NCBI GenBank assembly: GCA_950022695.1
Contig: CATLLN010000002.1
Location: forward strand, 248,001 to 312,000
Length of the DNA: 64,000 bases
Reading direction: 5' to 3'
Source of the DNA: an uncultured bacterium
GTDB lineage: Bacteria; Cyanobacteriota; Vampirovibrionia; Gastranaerophilales; Gastranaerophilaceae
Below the pieces are notes generated by a model, which saw only the letters and a program-made list of their open reading frames with translations, was not told where the DNA came from and ran no database searches. The position numbers were made by a program, and so were the translations under genes. Shown one piece after another: positions 4,214 to 62,553 of the stretch. How positions within the stretch are numbered: the stretch's first letter is position 1; each line of letters starts with the position of its first letter.

Positions 4214-6301
4214 CTATGCTTTAGCACCTGATTTTGAAATAATTTCGTCTTCGATGTTTTTCGGAACTTGTTCGTAGCATTGGAATTCCATAGAGAATGT
4301 ACCACGACCTTGAGTATTTGATCTCAAGTCTGTAGCATATCCGAACATGTTAGCCAACGGAACAAGAGCTCTAACGATAACGTTTCCGGTATTACCAAGA
4401 GGTTCTTGACCTTCAACACGACCGCGACGTCTTGAAATATCACCGATGATTGTACCTGTAAATTCGTCTGGAATTTCAACTTCAACTTTCATCATAGGTT
4501 CTAAGATACAAGGTTGAGCTTTTTTAGTACCTTCTTTAATAGCCATTGAACCAGCAATTTTGAACGCCATTTCAGAAGAGTCGACTTCGTGGTAAGATCC
4601 ATCATAAAGTTCAACTTTAACGTCAATCATTGGATAACCTGCTAAGATACCGCCTTCAAGAGCTTCTTCCATACCTTTTCTAGCCGGTTCGATGTATTCT
4701 TTCGGAACAGCACCACCAACGATTTTGTTTTCGAATACGAATCCTGCATTTTCTTCAGCTGGAGAGATTCTAATTTTAACGTGACCGTATTGACCTTTAC
4801 CACCTGATTGGCGAGCAAATTTAGAATCTTGATCAGCGTTTCCGCGAATTGTTTCACGGTAAGCAACTTGAGGTTTACCAATATTAGCTTCTACTTTGAA
4901 TTCTCTCATCATACGGTCAACAATGATATCAAGGTGAAGTTCACCCATACCGGAAATGATTGTTTGACCGGTTTCTTCATCAGATTTAACACGGAATGAC
5001 GGATCTTCTTCAGCAAGTTTTTGAAGAGCGATACCCATTTTATCTTGGTCAGCTTTTGTTTTTGGTTCAATAGCAACAGAGATAACCGGTTCAGGGAAAG
5101 TCATTCTTTCTAAGATGATAGGTGCTTTTTCATCACATAATGTATCACCTGTTGTTGTATCTTTTAAACCAACAGCAGCACAGATATCACCTGCGTATAC
5201 TTCTGATTCTTCTTGACGTTGGTCAGCATACATACGAACCAATCTTGAAATACGTTCTTTTTTACCATTTGTTGAGTTAAGAACATAAGAACCTGATGTA
5301 ATAACACCAGAATAAACTCTTAAGAATGTTAAACGTCCAACGAATGGGTCTGTCATAACTTTGAATGATAAAGCTGAGAACGGTTCAGAATCAGATGAAT
5401 GTCTTTCAGTTTTTGTACCATCTTCTAATTCACCTTCAATAGCTTTAACATCAACCGGTGATGGCATATAATCAACAACGTTGTTCAACAATAATTGAAC
5501 ACCTTTGTTTTTAAATGCTGTACCGCAGCAAACAGGAACGATTTTGTTATCACAAACAGCTTTTCTTAATACTGCTTTTAATTCATTAACAGTAATTGAT
5601 TCAGGATCTTCAAAGAATTTTTCCATTAAAGCGTCATCTTCAGATGCGATAGCTTCAACCATAGCATCACGGTATTCTTTAGCTTTTTCAGCTAATTCTG
5701 CCGGAATATCTTCTTCTTTAATATCAGTACCTAAATCGTTTGTATAAATTTCAGCTTTCATTGTCATTAAGTCAACTAAGCCTGTAAATTGATCTTCTGC
5801 ACCGATAGGTAATTGAATAGGAACAGCGTTAGCACCTAGTCTGTTTTTGATTTGGTCAACTACACGATAGAAGTCTGCACCTGTTCTGTCCATTTTGTTA
5901 ACAAAAACCATACGAGGAACTTCGTAACGGTTTGCTTGTCTCCAAACTGTTTCAGATTGAGATTGAACACCGCCAACCGCACAGAATACAGCTACAACAC
6001 CATCAAGTACACGAAGTGAACGTTCAACTTCAATTGTAAAGTCAACGTGACCCGGGGTATCGATAATGTTGATTTGGTGATTTTTCCAAGAAGCAGTAAC
6101 CGCAGCAGATTGAATTGTAATACCACGTTCTTTTTCTTGTTCCATAAAGTCAGTTACAGCTGCACCATCGTGAGTCTCACCAATTTTGTGAGTTTTACCT
6201 GTGTAAAACAAGATACGTTCTGTTGTAGTTGTTTTACCGGCATCGATGTGGGCTGCAATACCAATGTTTCTAATTTTTTCCAATGGAGTTTTTCTAGCCA
6301 T
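4214..6301 (-). CDS. fusA: Translation elongation factor G
   Basis: This GTPase drives ribosomal translocation and, with ribosome recycling factor, subunit splitting. It has 695 residues, close to the 690-705 of bacterial EF-G. The GTP-binding motifs are intact: [13 protein letters not shown] near residue 17, DTPGH near 82 and NKMD near 136. Domains II to V follow, including GMGELHLDI near 455. AAAGGA precedes the ATG. It stands alone here, not next to rpsL, rpsG or tuf as in the usual str operon. Confidence 0.98.
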
Positions 6302-6457
6302 TTTGTTTTTCCTTTTTCTATTTATATGTACATCGCTATTTTATATTTAGCCTCATTTTAATTATTCCATAAACATGATATTTTTCAAACGAATACAAGC
6401 TTTTTATGAAAGATTATTAATATTAGCAAAAATTATTTTTACAGACATTAAAACATT

Positions 6458-7261
6458 ATGAAAATCATGCCGGAACACTCATATAATACTAGTTGCAGAA
6501 AATCTGTTTCATTTGGTTCAACCGACAGATATTACAAGACAGAAGCAGGAAAAGAAATCGGAAATAATACCTGGCTTTTCAGGGAAGATATTAGCTGGCA
6601 TAATTTAGCTCAATTAGAGATTTCACACTTTCAACATAAAGACAAGGTTAATATCATTCAATTTGCAGCTTCTGACGGTTCGGAAGGTTATACTCAAATA
6701 ATGTCGCTACTTGAAAATGCAAAAAGAAAAGAGGTAAATAAATTCTTCCCAATTCAGGCTTTTGATATAAACGAATTCATTATAAATAGAGCTAAAAGCG
6801 GCAAAATTTGTCTTGGAGAAAAAGATATTCAACATTTGCGCACAAATTCTATAAATATTCCAACGTATTTTGAACGTATGCCTTTTACATTCAATTTATC
6901 AGACAGAGAGCTTGAAACTTTAAGAAATCATCCTTATAAAATTATAGGTACAAGAAATGAATTCAAAGTTTCTGATATCTTAACAAGCAGAATTTCTTTT
7001 AAACAAGGTGATATGTTTGAGATTCTTCCCAAAATAAAAGATGATTCAAACACAATTATCTTATGCCGAAATATTTTAGGATATTTTTTCGAAGAACCAA
7101 ATATAATAAATAACTTTGTAGAAACAATTTCAAAAGTGTTGAAAAAAGGAAGCTTATTTGTTATTGGAAAATTAGATACGGAGCTTCTAAAAATAGAAAA
7201 ATTACTTAAAGATAACTCATTTATTAAAATCTCTAAAAATGTATTTTTAAAAGTAAAATAA
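6458..7261 (+). CDS. CheR-like SAM-dependent methyltransferase
   Basis: The fold resembles the catalytic domain of chemotaxis methyltransferase CheR. The SAM-binding segment IIQFAASDGSEGY lies at residues 66-78, an acidic residue in AFDIN follows at about 103, and ILCRNILGYFFEE (about 201-213) matches the CheR pattern of RN followed by a Tyr-Phe pair. Instead of the CheR N-terminal helical domain it carries a short leader with SVSFGS at 16-21, and the middle (125-175) is unusual. No chemoreceptor or CheB is nearby, so the substrate is unknown and it may not act in chemotaxis. No ribosome site is evident before the ATG at 6458. It is single, with a shared terminator behind it. Confidence 0.7.
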   Translation: MKIMPEHSYNTSCRKSVSFGSTDRYYKTEAGKEIGNNTWLFREDISWHNLAQLEISHFQHKDKVNIIQFAASDGSEGYTQIMSLLENAKRKEVNKFFPIQAFDINEFIINRAKSGKICLGEKDIQHLRTNSINIPTYFERMPFTFNLSDRELETLRNHPYKIIGTRNEFKVSDILTSRISFKQGDMFEILPKIKDDSNTIILCRNILGYFFEEPNIINNFVETISKVLKKGSLFVIGKLDTELLKIEKLLKDNSFIKISKNVFLKVK

Positions 7262-7287
7262 AAAAGACCTCTTTATGAGGTCTTTTT
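7261..7287. terminator. Bidirectional terminator
   Basis: AAAAAGACCTC and GAGGTCTTTTT form a perfect 11-bp stem with a TTTAT loop between two convergent genes. Confidence 0.9.
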
Positions 7288-7304
7288 CATTATAGTTAAT
7301 TTAA

Positions 7305-7859
7305 TTAAATTTCGATATCACCGTATTTTTTAAATAAATCAGCGGCAGCCTGTTGAGTTTGTTTTTTCAAAGCATCTTCTGCAGCGTCAGTGGTTCTTTG
7401 AAATATTGTCCACTCATCAAGTACTTTTGTAGCTGCTACTGCATTATCTAAACTGTTAGAAACATCTAAAGAATCATATGCTTTTAATGCTGCATCTTTA
7501 CTAGCTAATCGCATAACAGTTTCACAAGCTTCGCCTTTTTTCTTACCGCCAACACCATCTGTGCCGTCCCAAGTCGATTTAATTGTTAAAAACTCATTAT
7601 GCGGAACAGCTTTTCCACGAATATCTCCAATATAAGCATTTGCACAATAATTACCATTTACTCTATATCGCAACGGAGTAAATTCGCTTGTTCCTTTTAC
7701 AACTTCTAAATCCCAATACTTAGTACCAGCAAGCTCTTCACCTGCTTTACCTAATCTTTCAATAACCTTTGCTCCTGCTGCTTCTAAATCTTTAGGAGAA
7801 CATTTAATTTTAAGTGCCATACCAAAATTTGGAGATTGTACATTGTTTTTAACTTCCAT
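7305..7859 (-). CDS. Unknown protein (184 aa) with N-terminal SPNFGM motif
   Basis: I do not recognise the family. After MEVKNNVQ comes SPNFGMALKI (residues 9-18), a motif that also occurs as KPFGMNVRV in the 95-residue protein at 25201-25488, where it is likewise followed by a helix containing AG and EEL. The rest is a mixed alpha/beta domain with a Gly/Lys turn (GVGGKKKGE, near 112) and a helical, Ala-rich C-terminal third. No signal peptide or membrane segment is seen. The ATG at 7859 is favoured because AAGGA lies upstream. An in-frame start 13 codons earlier would place that site inside the gene. Confidence 0.65.
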   Translation of the reverse strand: MEVKNNVQSPNFGMALKIKCSPKDLEAAGAKVIERLGKAGEELAGTKYWDLEVVKGTSEFTPLRYRVNGNYCANAYIGDIRGKAVPHNEFLTIKSTWDGTDGVGGKKKGEACETVMRLASKDAALKAYDSLDVSNSLDNAVAATKVLDEWTIFQRTTDAAEDALKKQTQQAAADLFKKYGDIEI

Positions 7860-7962
7860 TGGGTAAATTTCCTTCCTGCTTATTACACACATATACATTA
7901 AAGATAATAAAAATAAAATTTGCTGATTTTACAAACATTATTACGATTTATTAACATTTATT

Positions 7963-8670
7963 CTAAATACCGACAGATAAGCCTGCACAAAGATTTATAG
8001 ATTGACCTGTAATTCCTTTAGCTTCATCTGCCATCAAATATTTAACAAGTCCCGCAACTTCTTCAGGTTTTACGAAGCGTCTTTGCGGTATACATTCAAG
8101 GATTTCATCTTCTGAGAATTCACTATCTTCAATTGAAGATTTCCCCAGTTCTGTATCAACCCATCCGGGATTAATTGTATTTACTGTAATGCCATATTGA
8201 GCAAGCTCTAATCCCGCAGCCTTTGAAAGTCCGATAAGTCCTGCCTTTGTTGAAGAATACAAACTTGCATGTGCTTCTCCCATTACTCCTGAAATTGAAC
8301 CGATATTAATTATTCTTCCAAATCGCTGAGATTTCATATAAGGTACAGCACAATTCGTTAAATAAATCGGAGCTTTTAAATTCACTGCAATTATATGATT
8401 CAAGTCTGATAAACTAACTTCATCAATACATCCGTAAATATATTCTCCAGCATTATTTACAAGAACATCAATACTTCTTTCTTGTATAAATTCACCAAGT
8501 TTAACAAGCTCATCTTCATTTGCAAGGTCGCATACAAAATACCCTGCGTTGTCGAAACTTTTCAACGCTTCTTCATTTCTTCCGGTAACGTAAACCTGAC
8601 CAACAGCTTTTAAATTCTCTGCTATTGCTCTGCCAATCCCCTTTGATGCACCTGTAACTAATATATTCAT
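7963..8670 (-). CDS. Short-chain dehydrogenase/reductase (SDR family, FabG-like)
   Basis: This is an NAD(P)H-dependent oxidoreductase of the classical SDR family. TGASKGIG at residues 6-13 binds the cofactor, NNAG lies at 72-75, and the catalytic Ser in NIGSIS (about 125) plus Tyr138 and Lys142 (YSSTK) form the active site. At 235 residues it is a little shorter than FabG. The substrate cannot be told from sequence, and both 3-oxoacyl-ACP reduction and sugar/alcohol oxidation are possible. It is the last gene of the block nrtR-secG-unknown-SDR, starting 2 bases after the preceding stop. Confidence 0.88.
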   Translation of the reverse strand: MNILVTGASKGIGRAIAENLKAVGQVYVTGRNEEALKSFDNAGYFVCDLANEDELVKLGEFIQERSIDVLVNNAGEYIYGCIDEVSLSDLNHIIAVNLKAPIYLTNCAVPYMKSQRFGRIINIGSISGVMGEAHASLYSSTKAGLIGLSKAAGLELAQYGITVNTINPGWVDTELGKSSIEDSEFSEDEILECIPQRRFVKPEEVAGLVKYLMADEAKGITGQSINLCAGLSVGI

Positions 8671-8672
8671 AA

Positions 8673-9008
8673 TTATTTAGCTGTCTTTGTTATAATTTTT
8701 AAACTATCGTTTTTTAAAGAATCTAATGCATAAAGATGCATTTTTTCATATCGTGCTTTCAATTCTAACGAATCCAAAGCTTTTTGGTATACTTTATTAG
8801 CTGAAAACGGGTATTTTTTAGTTTGAGCCTGCGCCTCTATCCTGCTATATTCAACATCGCTAATACCGGATTGTTTAAGTTGTTTTTTGAGTTCAATCTG
8901 TAATTTTTTATCCTCATTAAGCTTTTTATGCCACCCGGACAAAGCAGAACCGACAGAAACAATTGATGCCGTTAAAAGTATTCCGCCAACAATTCTTCCT
9001 GCCTTCAT
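8673..9008 (-). CDS. Small membrane-anchored unknown protein (111 aa)
   Basis: An N-terminal hydrophobic segment (residues 5-25, IVGGILLTASIVSVGSAL) is probably a membrane anchor or uncleaved signal. The rest is highly charged and helical, with two KYPF/KARYEKMH-like Lys-rich helices. I do not recognise the family. It lies between secG (10 bases upstream) and the SDR gene (2 bases downstream), so it is cotranscribed with both. The location next to secG suggests, without proving, an envelope role. Confidence 0.6.
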   Translation of the reverse strand: MKAGRIVGGILLTASIVSVGSALSGWHKKLNEDKKLQIELKKQLKQSGISDVEYSRIEAQAQTKKYPFSANKVYQKALDSLELKARYEKMHLYALDSLKNDSLKIITKTAK

Positions 9009-9017
9009 AAATTCTCC

Positions 9018-9242
9018 TTACTTAACGATTCCAAACCCTATTAAAAATGTACAAATAATAAATACAGCACATACAATTCCGGTTAATTTATTCAACCCTT
9101 TTTCCGCGCTTTTTTGAGAAGCAAAAACGTGAGATGCTCCGCCAATCCCGCCGATTCCGTCACCTTTTGGCGAATGAAGCAGAATCAAGATAATCAATAA
9201 TACAGCTGCAGCAGTTGAAATTGCCCATAATATATTTACCAT
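9018..9242 (-). CDS. secG: Protein-export membrane protein SecG
   Basis: This is a small accessory subunit of the SecYEG translocon. At 74 residues it has the typical SecG layout: transmembrane helix 1 (residues 3-22), the conserved cytoplasmic loop HSPKGDGIGGIGGASHVF (23-40), and helix 2 (about 53-72). Its ATG overlaps the stop of the upstream nrtR by one base (TAATG), so translation is probably coupled. No tRNA-Leu, tpiA or rnr neighbour is present. Confidence 0.93.
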   Translation of the reverse strand: MVNILWAISTAAAVLLIILILLHSPKGDGIGGIGGASHVFASQKSAEKGLNKLTGIVCAVFIICTFLIGFGIVK

Positions 9243-9922
9243 TATTTAATTTTCTCCTTTTTTATGAAATGTGCTCTTTTTGAGTTTAATTCAATATTTT
9301 CAAAAGTATATAGCCTTGCCGGGCGTTTTGAAGATGACTTTGTATACTCATCGAGCTCAATTAAACCATCTGTACATAAAGCTTTTTTCCTGAAATTACG
9401 TTTATCCAATTTCTTATCCATAATAAGTTCATAAGCTTTTTGCATTTCTGTTAGCGTGAATTTTTCCGGTAAAAGCTGGTAAGCAACCGGACATAATTCA
9501 AGTCTTTCTCTTGTTCTTTTTATTGAATACTGAATGATTTCCTTGTGGTCGTATCCTAAAGGCGGAAGGTCCTCGATTTTGTGCCATGCAAGTTCAGGAG
9601 ATGAAGCGATTGTGATATCCTCAGAACGCACAAGGGCAAAATATGCACAGGTAATTACACGGGCATTAGGGTGACGAAGCGGATCACCAAATGTATAAAG
9701 CTGTTCAAGATAAATATTATCTACATCTGTTTTTTCTTTCAAAACACGTAATGCAGCTTCATCAAGATTTTCTGATAATCTGATATATCCCCCCGGAATC
9801 GCCCACTTACCTTTGAACGGTTCTGTAGTACGTTTTACCAATAATACCTGAATATTGTTATTCTTAATAGTTAAAATTACTACGTCGACTGTAATCTCGT
9901 GTGTTTTTGTTACGCTGAACAT
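9242..9922 (-). CDS. nrtR: NrtR-like Nudix-domain transcriptional regulator
   Basis: The N-terminal Nudix fold is followed by a winged helix, as in NrtR, the ADP-ribose-sensing repressor of NAD metabolism genes. The Nudix box (residues 45-67) keeps G45, E51, R59 and E63. The expected Glu after R59 is Val60, the second Glu of the EE pair is Lys64, and the Gly is Asp66, so hydrolysis is unlikely and a ligand-sensing role fits. The C-terminal FTLTEMQKAYELIMDKKLD, followed by KRNFRKK and KRPARLYTFE, matches NrtR winged-helix sequences. No NAD biosynthesis gene is in the window. The gene heads the block with secG. Confidence 0.8.
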   Translation of the reverse strand: MFSVTKTHEITVDVVILTIKNNNIQVLLVKRTTEPFKGKWAIPGGYIRLSENLDEAALRVLKEKTDVDNIYLEQLYTFGDPLRHPNARVITCAYFALVRSEDITIASSPELAWHKIEDLPPLGYDHKEIIQYSIKRTRERLELCPVAYQLLPEKFTLTEMQKAYELIMDKKLDKRNFRKKALCTDGLIELDEYTKSSSKRPARLYTFENIELNSKRAHFIKKEKIK

Positions 9923-10088
9923 TTAGTATAACCTTTTTATCCTTCTTCTATATTTATATAATAAACATACTTAATACAATTAATCAATGTGTTAAAACTT
10001 TTAATATTTGTTTACAAACGTATGAAAAGTATGCAATTATTATATACTTTTTATCTTTATATTAATAAGGATACTAAAAGAGATACGT

Positions 10089-11057
10089 ATGTTTTATTTC
10101 ACACCGCCACATATGCATCAATGCTTTTCAAACCCGTTTGGAGCAACGATGCTAAATCCAAAAATTAACTTCTGCTTAGGAATGGCAGCAGCCACATCTC
10201 CTATGTCTATGTATGGAGTACCTTTTGGCGGTTCATTATTTATGCCATACAGTAGTAGTATGATGGGCTTTAACAGTTATCATATGATGCCTGCGATGCC
10301 AACATTTGGATTTGGATTCAATAATACAAATAATCTTACAGGTTTTAACACACTTAACAACAATTACAACTTTAATTCATTTGCACCTGTTAATAATTTC
10401 GGAACTGACTTAAATTCATACATGGCATTATTAACCAAACAAATGCAATCATCATTTAAAATGCCGAATTTTAGTTTTAACCCATACTTAGGTGCCGCAA
10501 CAAATAACAGTAATGACATTAATGATATAGACCCGAATGAACCACAGGGTGTAAAACTTAATAAAGACAAATCCAAATACGGACCTGAATTTTTAGCAAA
10601 AGTTAAACAAATTGCTAAAAAAATCAATTGTAATTATAGAGATTTACTTGCTGTAATGAACTCTGAATCCGGAATTGATGCTCAGGCTAAAAACTCTAAC
10701 GGTTCAGCTACAGGACTTATTCAGTTTATAGAATCAACCGCGCGTACATTAGGTACAACAACAGCTGCGTTAAGAAACATGAGCCCGATTCAACAGCTTG
10801 ATTATGTTGAAAAATACTTTATTATAAATAAAACAACAGCCGGTTTCAGTGCATCTGATAAATTATCAGCAGGAGATTTATATGCTTTAGTATTCCTACC
10901 GGCAAGAGCAAAACGCGAAATACTAACTACATCAGACGAAAATTTTTATAATGCAAATAAAGCACTTGATAAAAACAATGATGGCAAAATAACAAAAGAT
11001 GAACTTGCCCAACGCGTTCAATCCCATTACGTAAGTGATAGTACATTTTTAGCGTAG
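10089..11057 (+). CDS. Lytic transglycosylase (SLT domain) with Met/Phe/Asn-rich N-terminus and EF-hand-like tail
   Basis: Residues about 165-290 form an SLT-type peptidoglycan lytic transglycosylase domain: AVMNSESG with the likely catalytic Glu193, then GSATGLIQFIEST. It would cleave the MurNAc-GlcNAc bond and leave 1,6-anhydro ends. Residues about 294-305 (DKNNDGKITKDE) match the calcium loop of an EF-hand or dockerin repeat. Residues 1-145 are low-complexity (Met, Phe, Asn, Gly, Tyr), and no classical signal peptide is seen, so export is unexplained. Similar Phe/Gly composition recurs in the 122-residue protein at 45690. A single gene upstream of minC, it could take part in wall remodelling at division, but only position suggests this. 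Confidence 0.82.
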   Translation: MFYFTPPHMHQCFSNPFGATMLNPKINFCLGMAAATSPMSMYGVPFGGSLFMPYSSSMMGFNSYHMMPAMPTFGFGFNNTNNLTGFNTLNNNYNFNSFAPVNNFGTDLNSYMALLTKQMQSSFKMPNFSFNPYLGAATNNSNDINDIDPNEPQGVKLNKDKSKYGPEFLAKVKQIAKKINCNYRDLLAVMNSESGIDAQAKNSNGSATGLIQFIESTARTLGTTTAALRNMSPIQQLDYVEKYFIINKTTAGFSASDKLSAGDLYALVFLPARAKREILTTSDENFYNANKALDKNNDGKITKDELAQRVQSHYVSDSTFLA

Positions 11058-57189: not shown

Positions 57190-57855
57190 ATGAATAATAC
57201 GCTTAAAATTATATTATTTGCAGCTGCATTTTTTATATTTATTTCACTGTGCATATTTGGGTTGTCAAAGTTAAAAGTTGATGATTTTCATAAAGCTGCA
57301 GTAATTTTTGTTGTGGATTCTTCCGCATCTAATTATAAGAATTTACCAGCTCAAAAGATGTTGATAAGACAGTTATGCTCTATGCTTGACCCTGAAGACC
57401 ATATAAAAATTCTAAGAGTTTCACAAGAGTCATATTTAATATATGAGGGTTCTCCTCAGTCAAGTGCTGATGTTAGAAAATCAATGGAAAAATTTACTCA
57501 ACTTGATTCAAATGAATATGGTACGGCATACGGACTTGCTTTGAAAAAAGCATTTAATCATGCTTTAACCAAAAATAAGGAAGATTTTATTCCTGCTGTT
57601 GTTGTAATAGGTGATCTTGAAAATGAAGGAGATATATCTAAACAAATAGATTGGGAAACCTTACCTGAAGAAGTTTCTAATGTTAAAAATCAAGCAGATG
57701 ATTTTGCTATGATGTTTTTATATGCTTCTCCTGAAAAATTAGATATGGTAAAAGAAAAGCTTGGGCCTGTACTTGGAGAAAATAAACTTATAATTGGTAA
57801 TGAAACTGCTTCAAATAGAGTTTTAAGACAATTTTTAGCTGCAATTGGAAGGTAA
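57190..57855 (+). CDS. Membrane-anchored VWA-domain-like protein (221 aa)
   Basis: One N-terminal membrane helix (about 5-24, IILFAAAFFIFISLCIFGLS) is followed by a von Willebrand factor A-like domain: AAVIFVVDSSASNYKNLPAQ (about 37-56) holds the DxSxS metal site, QLCSMLDPEDHIKILRVSQ near 67 and AVVVIGDLENEGDIS near 137 fit the later strands. Such domains bind protein partners through a metal ion. The C-terminal 60 residues lack a clear motif. It is first of three closely spaced genes, 6 bases before the FHA-like membrane protein. There is no ribosome site at the ATG. Confidence 0.72.
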   Translation: MNNTLKIILFAAAFFIFISLCIFGLSKLKVDDFHKAAVIFVVDSSASNYKNLPAQKMLIRQLCSMLDPEDHIKILRVSQESYLIYEGSPQSSADVRKSMEKFTQLDSNEYGTAYGLALKKAFNHALTKNKEDFIPAVVVIGDLENEGDISKQIDWETLPEEVSNVKNQADDFAMMFLYASPEKLDMVKEKLGPVLGENKLIIGNETASNRVLRQFLAAIGR

Positions 57856-57861
57856 AATTAT

Positions 57862-59433
57862 ATGAAGGTTGTTGTAAAATACGGTAATTTATCAAAAGAA
57901 TTTGATAATCAAGAAACAATAACTATAGGTAATAAAAACTGTGATATCATTATCTCAGAGTTCTCAGATGATGAAATATTAAAACTTGTTTATGCAGAAA
58001 AATATAATAATTATGTTTTGATGAATGTATCTCAAAGCAGAGAAATCTTGTGTAATAATAAGGTGTTTTCAAAAATCCTTGTAAATAAGAATTTCATAAT
58101 ATCTTCTAATAAAATTTCAGGAAATATTGAAGTTGAAGTAGAAGTTCCGGTAAAAACATCTGTTGCTGTCGGTGGACGTAATTCAGGTAGTGATATTTCT
58201 TTATCACAATACGTACCTGTTCAAGATAATGATATTTTTGGCAATATTGAAAAACAAAGAATTACTATTATTAAAGAAATAGGGTCTAAAATTCTTGAGT
58301 ATAAAAATAATATAAAATCAACAGGCATAACGTTATTTGTTTTAAATGCTGCAATGGTTATTTTGTCAATTGTTTCGGCTTTTGGAATAACTAATTTTTT
58401 ACTTGGTTTTAAAATAGATAATACATCATCTGTTTTAAATTTAACTACTAATTTTGGTTTTTTATTCTGTGTTAGTGCTATTTTGTGTGCAGTTTGTACG
58501 ATTTTGAAGCAGGGTGTATGTTCTTTATTAGAGTTTTCTGTAAATAAAAAATTCGGAGAGACAAATATTGCACAGAAATTTGTTGTCGGAATATCATCAT
58601 TTTTCTTATTTGTAGTATATGTATTAAATTTATTTTATTACAAAGCAATACCTGGTTTTGTTGCAGCTTCGCTTTTTATTTCACTATTATTTGTTGGAGG
58701 CTTAGCTATTGTAACTGTTGGTGGCGGGTATTTTAAATTTCAATCAAAACTTTATCAAAAACAACTGACAAATTGTGAATATAGAGAGGATTTTGAGTCT
58801 GTAATGAAAAATTATAGAAAATTGATCTCAGTATATATAAATAAATTAAGTCAGAATAAAATTAATACGATTAAAAGTAATCTTGTAAATAATCAATTAA
58901 AAATGGTAATGGAAGTGTTTATAGGACTAGTAACATCTCCTTTTTTAGCTTACGGTGTTTCAAACACATTAGCAAGTTGTTTTCCGGAAGCTGCAAATTG
59001 GGTTAGAATTTCCGGTTTAAGATTTTCTCCTATATTTTTAACTCTTTCTACTTTTTTGATTATTTTTGCATTTTTCTCTTTTGTACGAGCATTTGCTATT
59101 GGTAAACAAATAAAAGGATCTGAGATAATCAAATTTGACGGATTTCATGATTATTCCACTCACGGAGTTAATGTATTGGGACTGGATTCAATGAGAAACC
59201 TTGAACGTGAGAAAAAAGTCGTGATGTTTATTGCATGTTTTATAATAATGATAGAATTTACAATGAATGTCTCATATTTTGTAACTGAAATAGGTGGAGA
59301 TATTCAAGGAATGTTTTTGAGTTTTGTAACTGCTCTTGTTCCGACTGCTCTTTTGATTGCGGAAACTCATATGCTTAGTGCTACTATGCATAAAATTAAC
59401 AATTATAATGAATTATTAGCTGCTTTGGATTAG
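57862..59433 (+). CDS. Polytopic membrane protein with FHA-like N-terminal domain (523 aa)
   Basis: Residues about 1-100 resemble a forkhead-associated domain (VVVKYGNLSKEFDNQETITI, then GNKNCDIIISEFSDDE), but the Arg and Ser/His that bind phosphothreonine in classical FHA domains are not evident, so phosphopeptide binding is doubtful. From about 150 come seven or eight hydrophobic helices (for example ITLFVLNAAMVILSIVSAFG, FVVGISSFFLFVVYVLNLFY and MFIACFIIMIEFTMNVSYF). No transporter or secretion family is recognised. It sits between the VWA-like and TonB-like genes, 6 bases from each. Confidence 0.68.
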   Translation: MKVVVKYGNLSKEFDNQETITIGNKNCDIIISEFSDDEILKLVYAEKYNNYVLMNVSQSREILCNNKVFSKILVNKNFIISSNKISGNIEVEVEVPVKTSVAVGGRNSGSDISLSQYVPVQDNDIFGNIEKQRITIIKEIGSKILEYKNNIKSTGITLFVLNAAMVILSIVSAFGITNFLLGFKIDNTSSVLNLTTNFGFLFCVSAILCAVCTILKQGVCSLLEFSVNKKFGETNIAQKFVVGISSFFLFVVYVLNLFYYKAIPGFVAASLFISLLFVGGLAIVTVGGGYFKFQSKLYQKQLTNCEYREDFESVMKNYRKLISVYINKLSQNKINTIKSNLVNNQLKMVMEVFIGLVTSPFLAYGVSNTLASCFPEAANWVRISGLRFSPIFLTLSTFLIIFAFFSFVRAFAIGKQIKGSEIIKFDGFHDYSTHGVNVLGLDSMRNLEREKKVVMFIACFIIMIEFTMNVSYFVTEIGGDIQGMFLSFVTALVPTALLIAETHMLSATMHKINNYNELLAALD

Positions 59434-59439
59434 TTATTT

Positions 59440-60294
59440 ATGAATAAAAGTTTATGGTTTATTTGTGCAATTTTATTTGTGTTAGTAACAGTATTTGTTA
59501 TAGCATCTGATAGTTCAGTACCCGGACGCAGAGTTCGATTTTCAAATCAAGCGTTTGAAATAAACAATACAAATAATGAAATAGTTAATGATTCTAATAC
59601 AAAAATTAATTTCGGCAGTTCAAATATAAAAAATAAAAATATAAAAACAGATGAAAAAGAAATAAAGTTGAGTTCTGTAGATACACAAAATCAAAATATT
59701 GATTATAATAATTCATCAGGTTTTTCTATTCAAGAGAATGAAATTGAACATATTAACGCTGAATATTCTAACCAAGAGACTGAAATACAAAATCATAATA
59801 ATTTAAATTATAAAAATTTGGATTATAGTGATTTAGATTCACGTATAGAGCAGGCTAAAAAAATTACTTCTGACCCGGTTGATGTTAGTAACAAACCGTT
59901 TAGAATTATGCCAAAGAATAAATATACTTATAAAAATATAGATTGGAATACGTGGAAAAGTAACTTTGTTAATGCAATTTTGGATGAAAGCGTACGCATT
60001 AAAGAACTTGATAATTATCCTAACGGTTCGTGGTTTTATTATCAGTTTAATGTAGATACAGAAGGACGAATTTCTGACATTATTGTAAAATCAATGCACC
60101 TCAGCTTTGATGATAAACAGAAGATAATCGAACTCATTAAAAGTTTTGAATATTCTGAGTTAACAATATTTCCTCATAATACAAAGCGTAAAATAGCCAA
60201 GGTGTCTGCAGTGTTAATGCTTTCTAACGAAACCGAGTATTCGCGTCCGAATAATTTTAATGATTTTGAGCAGGTAAAAATAAAATTAGATTAA
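59440..60294 (+). CDS. Membrane-anchored protein with TonB-like C-terminal domain (284 aa)
   Basis: A membrane helix (about 4-22, LWFICAILFVLVTVFVIAS) is followed by an Asn/Ile/Glu-rich linker (25-150) and a domain at about 165-275 with the TonB/TolA C-terminal pattern: FVNAILDESVRIKELDNYPN, WFYYQFNVDTEGRISDIIVK, then a helix and ISAVLML-like strand. In TonB/TolA such a domain reaches across the periplasm to outer-membrane partners. No ExbB/D is adjacent; the VWA and FHA-like membrane proteins would take their place. The 3' end overlaps the convergent gene by 9 bp. Confidence 0.7.
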   Translation: MNKSLWFICAILFVLVTVFVIASDSSVPGRRVRFSNQAFEINNTNNEIVNDSNTKINFGSSNIKNKNIKTDEKEIKLSSVDTQNQNIDYNNSSGFSIQENEIEHINAEYSNQETEIQNHNNLNYKNLDYSDLDSRIEQAKKITSDPVDVSNKPFRIMPKNKYTYKNIDWNTWKSNFVNAILDESVRIKELDNYPNGSWFYYQFNVDTEGRISDIIVKSMHLSFDDKQKIIELIKSFEYSELTIFPHNTKRKIAKVSAVLMLSNETEYSRPNNFNDFEQVKIKLD

Positions 60295-60723
60295 TTTTCT
60301 TTTTAATAATTTGCTCAAAACATCCATGAACCATTTGTCTGCACGAAGTTCTGCCAAGTTTGCGTAATTCTTTTTAACGGGTTCAAAGTCTCTTCTGAAA
60401 AGATTTAAAGTAATGCCTTTTAGGCTGTTTCCAATTTCGTCAAAAAACACCAAAACATCAGCTTTGGGTACGGTTAAGTTAATAACTTGTGTTGCTAACT
60501 TTGGTTCATCTTTTGTTCCGATATTTCTCATTTGTCTGATAAGAGTCATATTAGGGTCGGTATCTAATCTTTGAGTAATTTTATTCATGTAATCTTTTCC
60601 GCGGTAAACACTAATTTTTCTGCGGCCATTAAAGTTCTCGAGCTTTCTTTCAGTACCAACTTCCATATGTTTAAATAAGTAGTTCAAATGATCTTCTGCA
60701 CTGACAGGTCTAACGTAACTCAT
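60286..60723 (-). CDS. Unknown protein (145 aa)
   Basis: The family is not recognised. It is basic at both ends (KLENFNGRRKISVYRGKDYM near 28-47 and KWFMDVLSKLLKRKLI at the end), with a central beta-like KLATQVINLTVPKADVLVFF. No membrane or signal segment is seen. The ATG at 60723 follows AAAGGA by 7 bases; an in-frame TTG five codons upstream lies just before that site. It is divergent from the TPR-glycosyltransferase gene, and a perfect 24-bp palindrome lies between them. Confidence 0.6.
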   Translation of the reverse strand: MSYVRPVSAEDHLNYLFKHMEVGTERKLENFNGRRKISVYRGKDYMNKITQRLDTDPNMTLIRQMRNIGTKDEPKLATQVINLTVPKADVLVFFDEIGNSLKGITLNLFRRDFEPVKKNYANLAELRADKWFMDVLSKLLKRKLI

Positions 60724-60805
60724 TTTATGTCCTTTCAAAATAGGTATGCATTTAGTTGTTATGTATAATAACCGTAAAAAATTATTTTTGCTATCTTTTT
60801 CTTGT

Positions 60806-60879: not shown

Positions 60880-62553
60880 ATGTTAAAAGAAGAAATTGAA
60901 AATATATTATTTCTTGATAAAATACCGTTTGAAACTAATGGTATATCCAGCGAACTTTTAAATGCATATGATGAATTTATACTGGATAATGAAACTTCTT
61001 TGGACTTTGTTTCTTCTGAAGTATTCAATATTTATAGTAAATTCGTTAGTATGAGGCGAGAAGCTCCAGAAGGAATGAAAAATGAACTTTTTCGAATTAT
61101 AAAAAGTTATATTAAAGAAAAAGTTGCTGAAGAAAAGTTTATAGATGGACTTTTTTTGCAGCGTTTTTTGATAATGAAATCCAGACTGCAGGCTGCAAGT
61201 TATTATGATATTGCAGAAATTTTTTCGAAACTTAATGATAATAAACTTGCTAAAGAATTTTTAAAACTTTATGAACAATATGAAACAAATAAACCGTTAA
61301 AATTATTATCTTTGGGTAATTTTTATAATCTGCAATTGAAAGAGTATAAAAATGCAATAAAATATTATGAACAGTATTTGAAAATAGATGAAACTAAAGC
61401 GGTTATTTATACAATTCTTGCAGGTTTATATGCAAAAGAGTACGGCGAATTCAGCCTGAAAGATCAAGTTTATTATTTTGAAAAAGCTTATCGATTAAAA
61501 CCTGATGAACGTTTGGTTTTACATGGTCTTGCTTTTGGGTATGAAAAACTTGGTGATATTAAAAATGCTGCAAAGTTTTATCAAAAGATTTTGGGAAATA
61601 ACCCGACAAATACTGATTATTATAATTATGGGGCGTTTTTAATAAGCTGTGGCAAGTTTCAAGAAGGGCACAAGTTTTTAACATATCGTTTTAATATTGA
61701 TGATAAAAATCTTAAATATCCTGTTTTAACTTCAAAAGGAATAAAGTGGGATTTAAAATCGGATATATCTGACAAAACTCTTCTTGTTCATTATGAACAA
61801 GGGTTTGGTGATACATTTATGTATTGCAGGTTTGTTCCGTATTTGAAATCCATGGCAAAAAAAGTAATCTTTGTTGTGCAGGATGAACTTTTTGAACTTA
61901 TTCAATCCTCAAAAATATTTGAAGGCATCAAGATTATTTCTGATAAGTTGAACCTTGATGAATTAGAGTTTGATGTTCATATGGCGCTTTTGGATGCCCC
62001 GTTTGTTTGCAAAGTAGATTCTTGTAATATGCCGTTTACTGACAAATATTTAGATGTTGATGAAATTTTAGTTCAAAAATATGCAAAAAAATATTTGGGG
62101 GGTTCTGGACATTTAAAAGTTGGAATTTCATGTCAAGGAAATAAATCTGCAAATTATAACAGTCGGGATATTGATTTTTCAAGGTTTAACAGATTGTTTA
62201 ATATTAAAAATATAGACTATTACTCTTTTTCGCTTGATGATAATTCTGATGAAAGAGTTATTTCACTAGGTAAAACATTTGAAAATTTCACAGATACGGC
62301 CTGTGCGTTAAAAAATATGGATATAATAATTTCAACTGATAATGTGATTTTAAATCTTGCAGGAGCTCTCGGTGTAAAAACATACGGTTTATTTAATAAA
62401 TATCCGAATTTTAGATGGTTTAAATTAAACGGTGATAATGTCGGCTGGTATGAATCTGTAACTCCTATACAGGTAGAAGAAAATAATTGCTGGTCGGATG
62501 TGCTTTCTGAACTTGTAAAAATATTGAGTAAATATAGCAAAAATAATTTTTAG
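60880..62553 (+). CDS. TPR protein fused to a heptosyltransferase-like (GT9-type) domain, 557 aa
   Basis: Residues about 100-270 hold TPR units (NFYNLQLKEYKNAIKYYEQY, then LKIDETKA and YEKLGDIKNAAKFYQKILGN). Residues about 290-555 resemble the GT-B fold of ADP-heptose:LPS heptosyltransferase relatives: LLVHYEQGFGDTFMYCRFVP near 302, KVGISCQGNKSANYNSRDID near 410, and the nucleotide-sugar region MDIIISTDNVILNLAGALGV near 483. It likely transfers a sugar to protein or glycan, with TPRs picking the substrate. There is no ribosome site at the ATG. The aminotransferase gene follows 19 bases later. Confidence 0.75.
   Translation: MLKEEIENILFLDKIPFETNGISSELLNAYDEFILDNETSLDFVSSEVFNIYSKFVSMRREAPEGMKNELFRIIKSYIKEKVAEEKFIDGLFLQRFLIMKSRLQAASYYDIAEIFSKLNDNKLAKEFLKLYEQYETNKPLKLLSLGNFYNLQLKEYKNAIKYYEQYLKIDETKAVIYTILAGLYAKEYGEFSLKDQVYYFEKAYRLKPDERLVLHGLAFGYEKLGDIKNAAKFYQKILGNNPTNTDYYNYGAFLISCGKFQEGHKFLTYRFNIDDKNLKYPVLTSKGIKWDLKSDISDKTLLVHYEQGFGDTFMYCRFVPYLKSMAKKVIFVVQDELFELIQSSKIFEGIKIISDKLNLDELEFDVHMALLDAPFVCKVDSCNMPFTDKYLDVDEILVQKYAKKYLGGSGHLKVGISCQGNKSANYNSRDIDFSRFNRLFNIKNIDYYSFSLDDNSDERVISLGKTFENFTDTACALKNMDIIISTDNVILNLAGALGVKTYGLFNKYPNFRWFKLNGDNVGWYESVTPIQVEENNCWSDVLSELVKILSKYSKNNF

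Follow-up and report, generated by a model that had tools for sequence, protein, structure and literature searches.

The VWA-MEM-TonB-like operon

The window analysed here, i.e. the whole stretch of 64,000 nucleotides, contains three open reading frames (ORFs) on the + strand, all with ATG starts, which encode a VWA protein (221 aa, 57190..57855), an FHA-headed polytopic membrane protein termed MEM (523 aa, 57862..59433) and a TonB-like protein (284 aa, 59440..60294). These are the coordinates given in an earlier reading of the DNA letters (the sequence-only reading), which had taken the three genes, 6 bases apart, as one unit; the ORF coordinates, the gaps (57856-57861 and 59434-59439) and the linkage in relatives described below all agree with this view. 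Promoter and terminator scans at the operon gave signals at chance level. The operon carries no TrbI-like gene and, as had been noted before, no MoxR-like ATPase (ORF list, Pfam). The accompanying claim that ExbB/ExbD are absent holds for the window locus but not for the genome, which has a canonical TonB-ExbB-ExbD-ExbD operon on another contig. PADLOC returned no anti-phage match at the locus apart from a weak RTasSLATT match on MEM, and a role in anti-phage defence was rejected. Downstream of the operon, at window 60880-62553, lies a gene for a 557-aa TPR protein, which close relatives retain at this position after a window-type cassette; a small antisense gene (60286-60738) intervenes.

The VWA protein consists of an N-terminal TM anchor followed by a VWA domain, which is expected to be located in the periplasm. 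The domain matches PF13519 (1.4e-6, 29.3 bits against a Pfam cut-off of 27) and has a complete MIDAS made up of D43-x-S45-x-S47 (the DxSxS motif at residues 43-47, 57316..57330), T112 and D142, each at least 99% conserved across 81 homologues, so that the metal-site VWA domain proposed from the sequence is borne out by a profile match above cut-off and a nearly invariant metal site. The TonB-like protein comprises an N-terminal TM helix, an N-rich disordered linker of ~130 aa and a C-terminal domain (residues 161-283, 59920..60288) modelled with a pLDDT of ~96-98. The best Foldseek matches of this domain are TonB C-terminal domains (CTDs), namely those of H. pylori (6sly, E 3e-3, prob 1.00), FusB and HasB, and the model thus shows the TonB-CTD fold after a TM helix and linker that the name TonB-like had implied. 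Pfam TonB_C or TonB_2 was found neither in the window arm nor among the 25 families listed for its 46-member set.

MEM, a membrane core with an FHA-like head

The FHA-like head of MEM (residues 1-95, 57862..58146) is predicted to be cytosolic. MEM was modelled with AlphaFold2 (mean pLDDT 81), and the FHA fold of its head is supported by Foldseek, as each of the top 17 PDB matches is either a chain with an FHA domain or a complex that contains one (prob 1.00, best TMt 0.73), in keeping with the initial description of this region. Pfam FHA was matched neither by the window MEM nor among the 25 families listed for 47 members. None of the 47 MEM sequences has the phosphothreonine-binding Arg at either of the two positions that follow the Gly of the beta-turn, and a Hanks-kinase profile finds a match in only 1/28 genus genomes; together, these two results make a structural role likelier than phospho-reading, so that a function of the head as phosphothreonine reader was rejected and the head is probably structural. 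A homologue of the MEM head exists in genus g22 as a free FHA protein of 99 aa, encoded beside an EmrAB/TolC-like efflux operon (L190:7387-7686, L191:7539-7838 and L195:342-641).

The head is followed in the model by eight long helices, and eight hydrophobic helices are also predicted from the sequence, in agreement with the higher of the two numbers, seven or eight, proposed earlier. The membrane core (residues 127-523, 58240..59430) is delimited by the AlphaFold2 model, hydropathy and conservation, and its eight TM helices bear long cytosolic extensions; a topology of eight TM helices with predicted cytosolic N- and C-termini is consistent with both hydropathy and the positive-inside distribution of charges. 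Conservation among 47 sequences is strongest in TM5-8 rather than in the FHA head, and peaks at residues 364-390 (mean top-residue frequency 0.93), within a best-conserved stretch of about residues 358-390 (58933..59031) that covers the last part of TM5 and a hairpin predicted to be periplasmic. Two glutamates are invariant in these sequences, E465 in TM7 and E501 in TM8.

MEM has no relative in Pfam, NCBIfam or PDB sequences, and Foldseek gave no convincing PDB fold match for the membrane core, the full-length search being dominated by the FHA head. Profile searches gave no match to a known transporter family; such a match, or genes that are not neighbours in relatives, would by the sequence-only reading's own account have refuted its proposal, and neither outcome was observed. 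Several assignments were considered and rejected. A divergent ExbB/MotA identity of MEM was discarded since profile-profile comparison with ExbB (10 sequences, hhalign) gave a probability of 0.1%, equal to that of unrelated membrane controls. An internal duplication was dismissed in the absence of a credible self-match (20% over 11 residues), and a SLATT-type protein was indicated by weak matches only (PADLOC RTasSLATT 0.0015 for the window MEM; Pfam SLATT_5 0.037 in 1/47 members). A literature search found no description of such an operon, which, with the lack of a family match for MEM, agrees with the earlier statement that no known system has this gene set.

Conservation and distribution

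In gene calls on the loci of relatives, the order VWA-MEM-TonB-like is recurrent. Counted over all loci, there are 116 distinct MEM genes, and both neighbours are visible in 114 of them; in these, the TonB-like gene lies directly 3' of MEM on the same strand in 114/114 cases and the VWA gene directly 5', again on the same strand, in 111/114. This neighbourhood was the check proposed in the sequence-only reading, and linkage of this extent shows that the unit is real and old and excludes a chance neighbourhood. Two genomes have kept TrbI-MEM-TonB-TonB with no VWA gene directly upstream. A relative of MEM was present in 36/36 genus-mates searched with the 523-aa protein, and the window-type cassette (identity at least 54%) in 35/36, the lone exception being a 73% complete genome with the paralogous type only.

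A distribution scan in which each bacterial and archaeal species was represented by one genome yielded 335 confirmed loci, the best 80 of which are from Gastranaerophilales/Melainabacteria or are loci of the same kind on generically or doubtfully named bins. Listed matches of class-wide and phylum-wide whole-genome searches were confined to one family. A single match in another family of the order (G052, a 66% complete genome, on an 8.7-kb contig) is either genuine or due to misassigned binning. Judged from these sequence searches, MEM was thus found only in Gastranaerophilales, and nearly always in one family, among the matches listed. Gastranaerophilales-type cassettes are also carried by FR900459.1 (L126, titled Fusobacterium sp. 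CAG:439) and JAMPCZ010000113.1 (L108, titled Muribaculaceae), which are probably mislabelled or contaminant contigs.

Paralogous operons

About half of the genus, as well as other genera of the family, encode a paralogous operon with a MEM ~40% identical to that of the window type and the order TrbI-like, VWA, MEM, TonB arm 1, TonB arm 2. A signal peptide and a glycine-zipper segment are present in the TrbI-like protein, whose VirB10/TrbI match is weak (13/15 TrbI-like proteins, best 4.7e-6; below the Pfam cut-off where scores are shown). Arm 2 is composed of an N-terminal four-cysteine ribbon, a TM helix and a TonB_2 domain, the latter being found by Pfam in 20/22 members. In genus g36, the unit is reduced to VWA-MEM-arm 2. 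Taken together, the paralogous, g36 and VWA-less operons point to a constant core of MEM with at least one TonB arm and, almost always, the VWA protein. Genes of other kinds were also seen beside paralogous operons, including a 705-aa protein near 16/36 loci with an MlaA domain (2.9e-41) and a possible alpha/beta-hydrolase part (L132:14625-16739), a secreted VWA protein at several loci (L033:3029-3946) and, beside other paralogous operons, a TonB_C-domain protein that carries a signal peptide (L133:11629-12366).

The canonical TonB system and TrbI-like proteins

The standard TonB-ExbB-ExbD-ExbD operon of the window genome (C1, ~552-555 kb) has two TrbI/VirB10-like genes directly upstream (L189, G000:C1:546000-560000, 6187-10434). 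In 18 of the 19 genomes with ExbB, across seven families, a comparison of coordinates placed a TrbI-like gene no more than ~2.5 kb away from it, and canonical TonB-ExbB-ExbD-ExbD operons with TrbI-like genes are conserved across the order. Six TrbI-like matches were obtained in the window genome. Two of the proteins appear, by sequence, to be fused to SLH-type repeats (L216:5218-6492 and L219:5047-6195), and the gene at L219 and an MlaA-like neighbour (by sequence resemblance) are divergently oriented.

The TonB-dependent-receptor plug PF07715 was found in 0/28 genus genomes and TolB (PF04052) in 0/30 genomes of the order, control genomes being positive in both searches. Siderophore or other TonB-dependent transporter (TBDT) uptake and a Tol-Pal function were therefore rejected, and the arms would need a non-standard target. 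The order Gastranaerophilales is described as diderm, with LPS/lipid A genes (PMC4040986). Such an envelope, together with the failure to find TBDTs or TolB and with the six TrbI-like matches (two of them SLH-fused), makes TrbI-like envelope proteins plausible targets of the window system.

Proposed function and alternative explanations

Our best explanation, to which we assign a probability of about 0.45, is that the operon encodes a second TonB-type trans-envelope transducer that would work without ExbB/ExbD, with MEM and the VWA protein in their place, and whose targets would be TrbI-like proteins or others of the envelope. The inner-membrane core would be MEM, with its cytosolic FHA-like head serving as an assembly platform and its eight TM helices, which include the invariant, buried E465 and E501, offering a candidate path for ions. 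The VWA protein, anchored by its TM helix, would sit on the periplasmic face of MEM, where its metal site could hold a partner. The TonB-like protein would be the arm across the periplasm; through it, MEM and the VWA protein may exert force on proteins of the outer membrane or bound to peptidoglycan, or signal to them by a change of conformation. The likeliest targets would be the TrbI/VirB10-like periplasmic proteins, as operon partners in the paralogous cassette and in trans for the window operon. The main reason for reading MEM and VWA as a functional stand-in for ExbB and ExbD is an argument from context, in that one TrbI-like accessory family and one arm domain are found alongside both cores, ExbB/ExbD and MEM/VWA. 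The explanation also draws on the near-invariant gene order, the TonB-type fold of arm 1 and the TonB_2 domain of arm 2, the two invariant glutamates and the strongly conserved TM5-6 region, the two VWA-less operons, the failure to find TBDTs or TolB, and the diderm envelope. Since MEM is not a detectable ExbB homologue, it is from this context that we infer an engine role, as we also infer complex formation, ion-driven action and the target. The hhalign result for MEM against ExbB and the lack of a membrane-fold match in the PDB count against this explanation, as do two further points: TrbI-like genes are common (six matches in the window genome) and none lies in the window operon, and the canonical ExbB/ExbD of the genome could energise the window arm too. 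A bolder version, which we regard as doubtful, would make MEM and VWA a new engine class, unrelated to MotA/TolQ/ExbB, that powers TonB-type arms on VirB10/TrbI-like proteins rather than on TonB-dependent receptors. Overall, the main reading of the earlier work is largely upheld, with partial support, the corrections being that ExbB/ExbD occur elsewhere in the genome and that the FHA head is probably no phospho-reader.

An unlikely alternative is an envelope-sensing or scaffolding complex, in which the VWA protein and the arm bind periplasmic or outer-membrane ligands and MEM signals to the cytosol through its FHA head with no ion flow. The retention of this head in both paralogous clades, its free 99-aa form by the g22 efflux operon and the strict conservation of the VWA metal site would fit such a role, whereas the loss of the phosphothreonine Arg (47/47), the scarcity of Hanks kinases (1/28 genus genomes) and the concentration of conserved positions in TM5-8 rather than in the head speak against it, and no regulator or kinase is regularly linked at the loci. 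It is improbable that the complex serves a structural or lipid-handling function, holding or remodelling the outer membrane (e.g. in Mla-type transport) with a TonB-type domain that merely binds. This would be in line with the position of the paralogous operon in other genera, near PlsY in 29, MlaA in 16 and MlaD in 18 of 36 loci, and with the divergent TrbI-SLH and MlaA-like genes of the window genome; however, PlsY, MlaA and MlaD lie outside the operon, the flanks of the window operon differ, and a shared position can reflect inherited synteny. We consider it very improbable that MEM belongs to an unrecognised family of transporters or ion channels and is regulated by the VWA and TonB-like proteins, as MEM has no family match and is always adjoined by a TonB arm, although it has eight TM helices with buried acids and the g36 operon follows TrkA-TrkH-like potassium uptake genes (sequence resemblance). 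An assembly of unrelated genes by chance, for which no supporting point was found, has been refuted by the linkage counted across 116 distinct genes (114/114 and 111/114), among them paralogues ~40% identical.

To our knowledge, the motor behind all well-studied TonB and Tol arms is of the ExbB/TolQ type. A second core of unrelated type alongside such arms would, if true, mean that the arm has been coupled to another engine or scaffold. It would also provide an initial entry point to the question of how the outer envelope is energised or held in Gastranaerophilales, which are common in the gut, are related to cyanobacteria and, in the genomes sampled, showed no TolB nor, in this genus, TonB receptors.

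Comparison with known systems

The TrbI-like periplasmic protein that comes first in paralogous operons resembles the outer-membrane barrel (VirB10/TrbI) of type IV secretion systems, but the match is weak, no further gene of these systems was recognised in the operons, and the window operon has no TrbI-like gene. Like the structural FHA domains of the secretion-system proteins YscD and EssC, the FHA fold of MEM caps a membrane protein on its cytosolic side and has lost its phospho-binding residue; however, the membrane part of MEM is unlike theirs and only very weak Yop-YscD_cpl sequence matches were obtained (2/47 MEM members, best 0.06). A membrane-anchored VWA protein with a MIDAS is shared with the BatA/BatB-type operons generally known to include MoxR, whereas the window operon lacks a MoxR-like ATPase and has a polytopic FHA protein and a TonB arm. 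In comparison with TonB-ExbB-ExbD and TolA-TolQ-TolR, the core is an eight-TM, FHA-headed protein with no detectable ExbB/MotA kinship, VWA replaces ExbD, and neither TonB-dependent receptors nor TolB were detected in the genus. With these systems, the operon nevertheless shares a single-TM arm with a long disordered linker and a TonB-type CTD, encoded together with a polytopic core of the inner membrane and another periplasmic protein that has a single TM helix.
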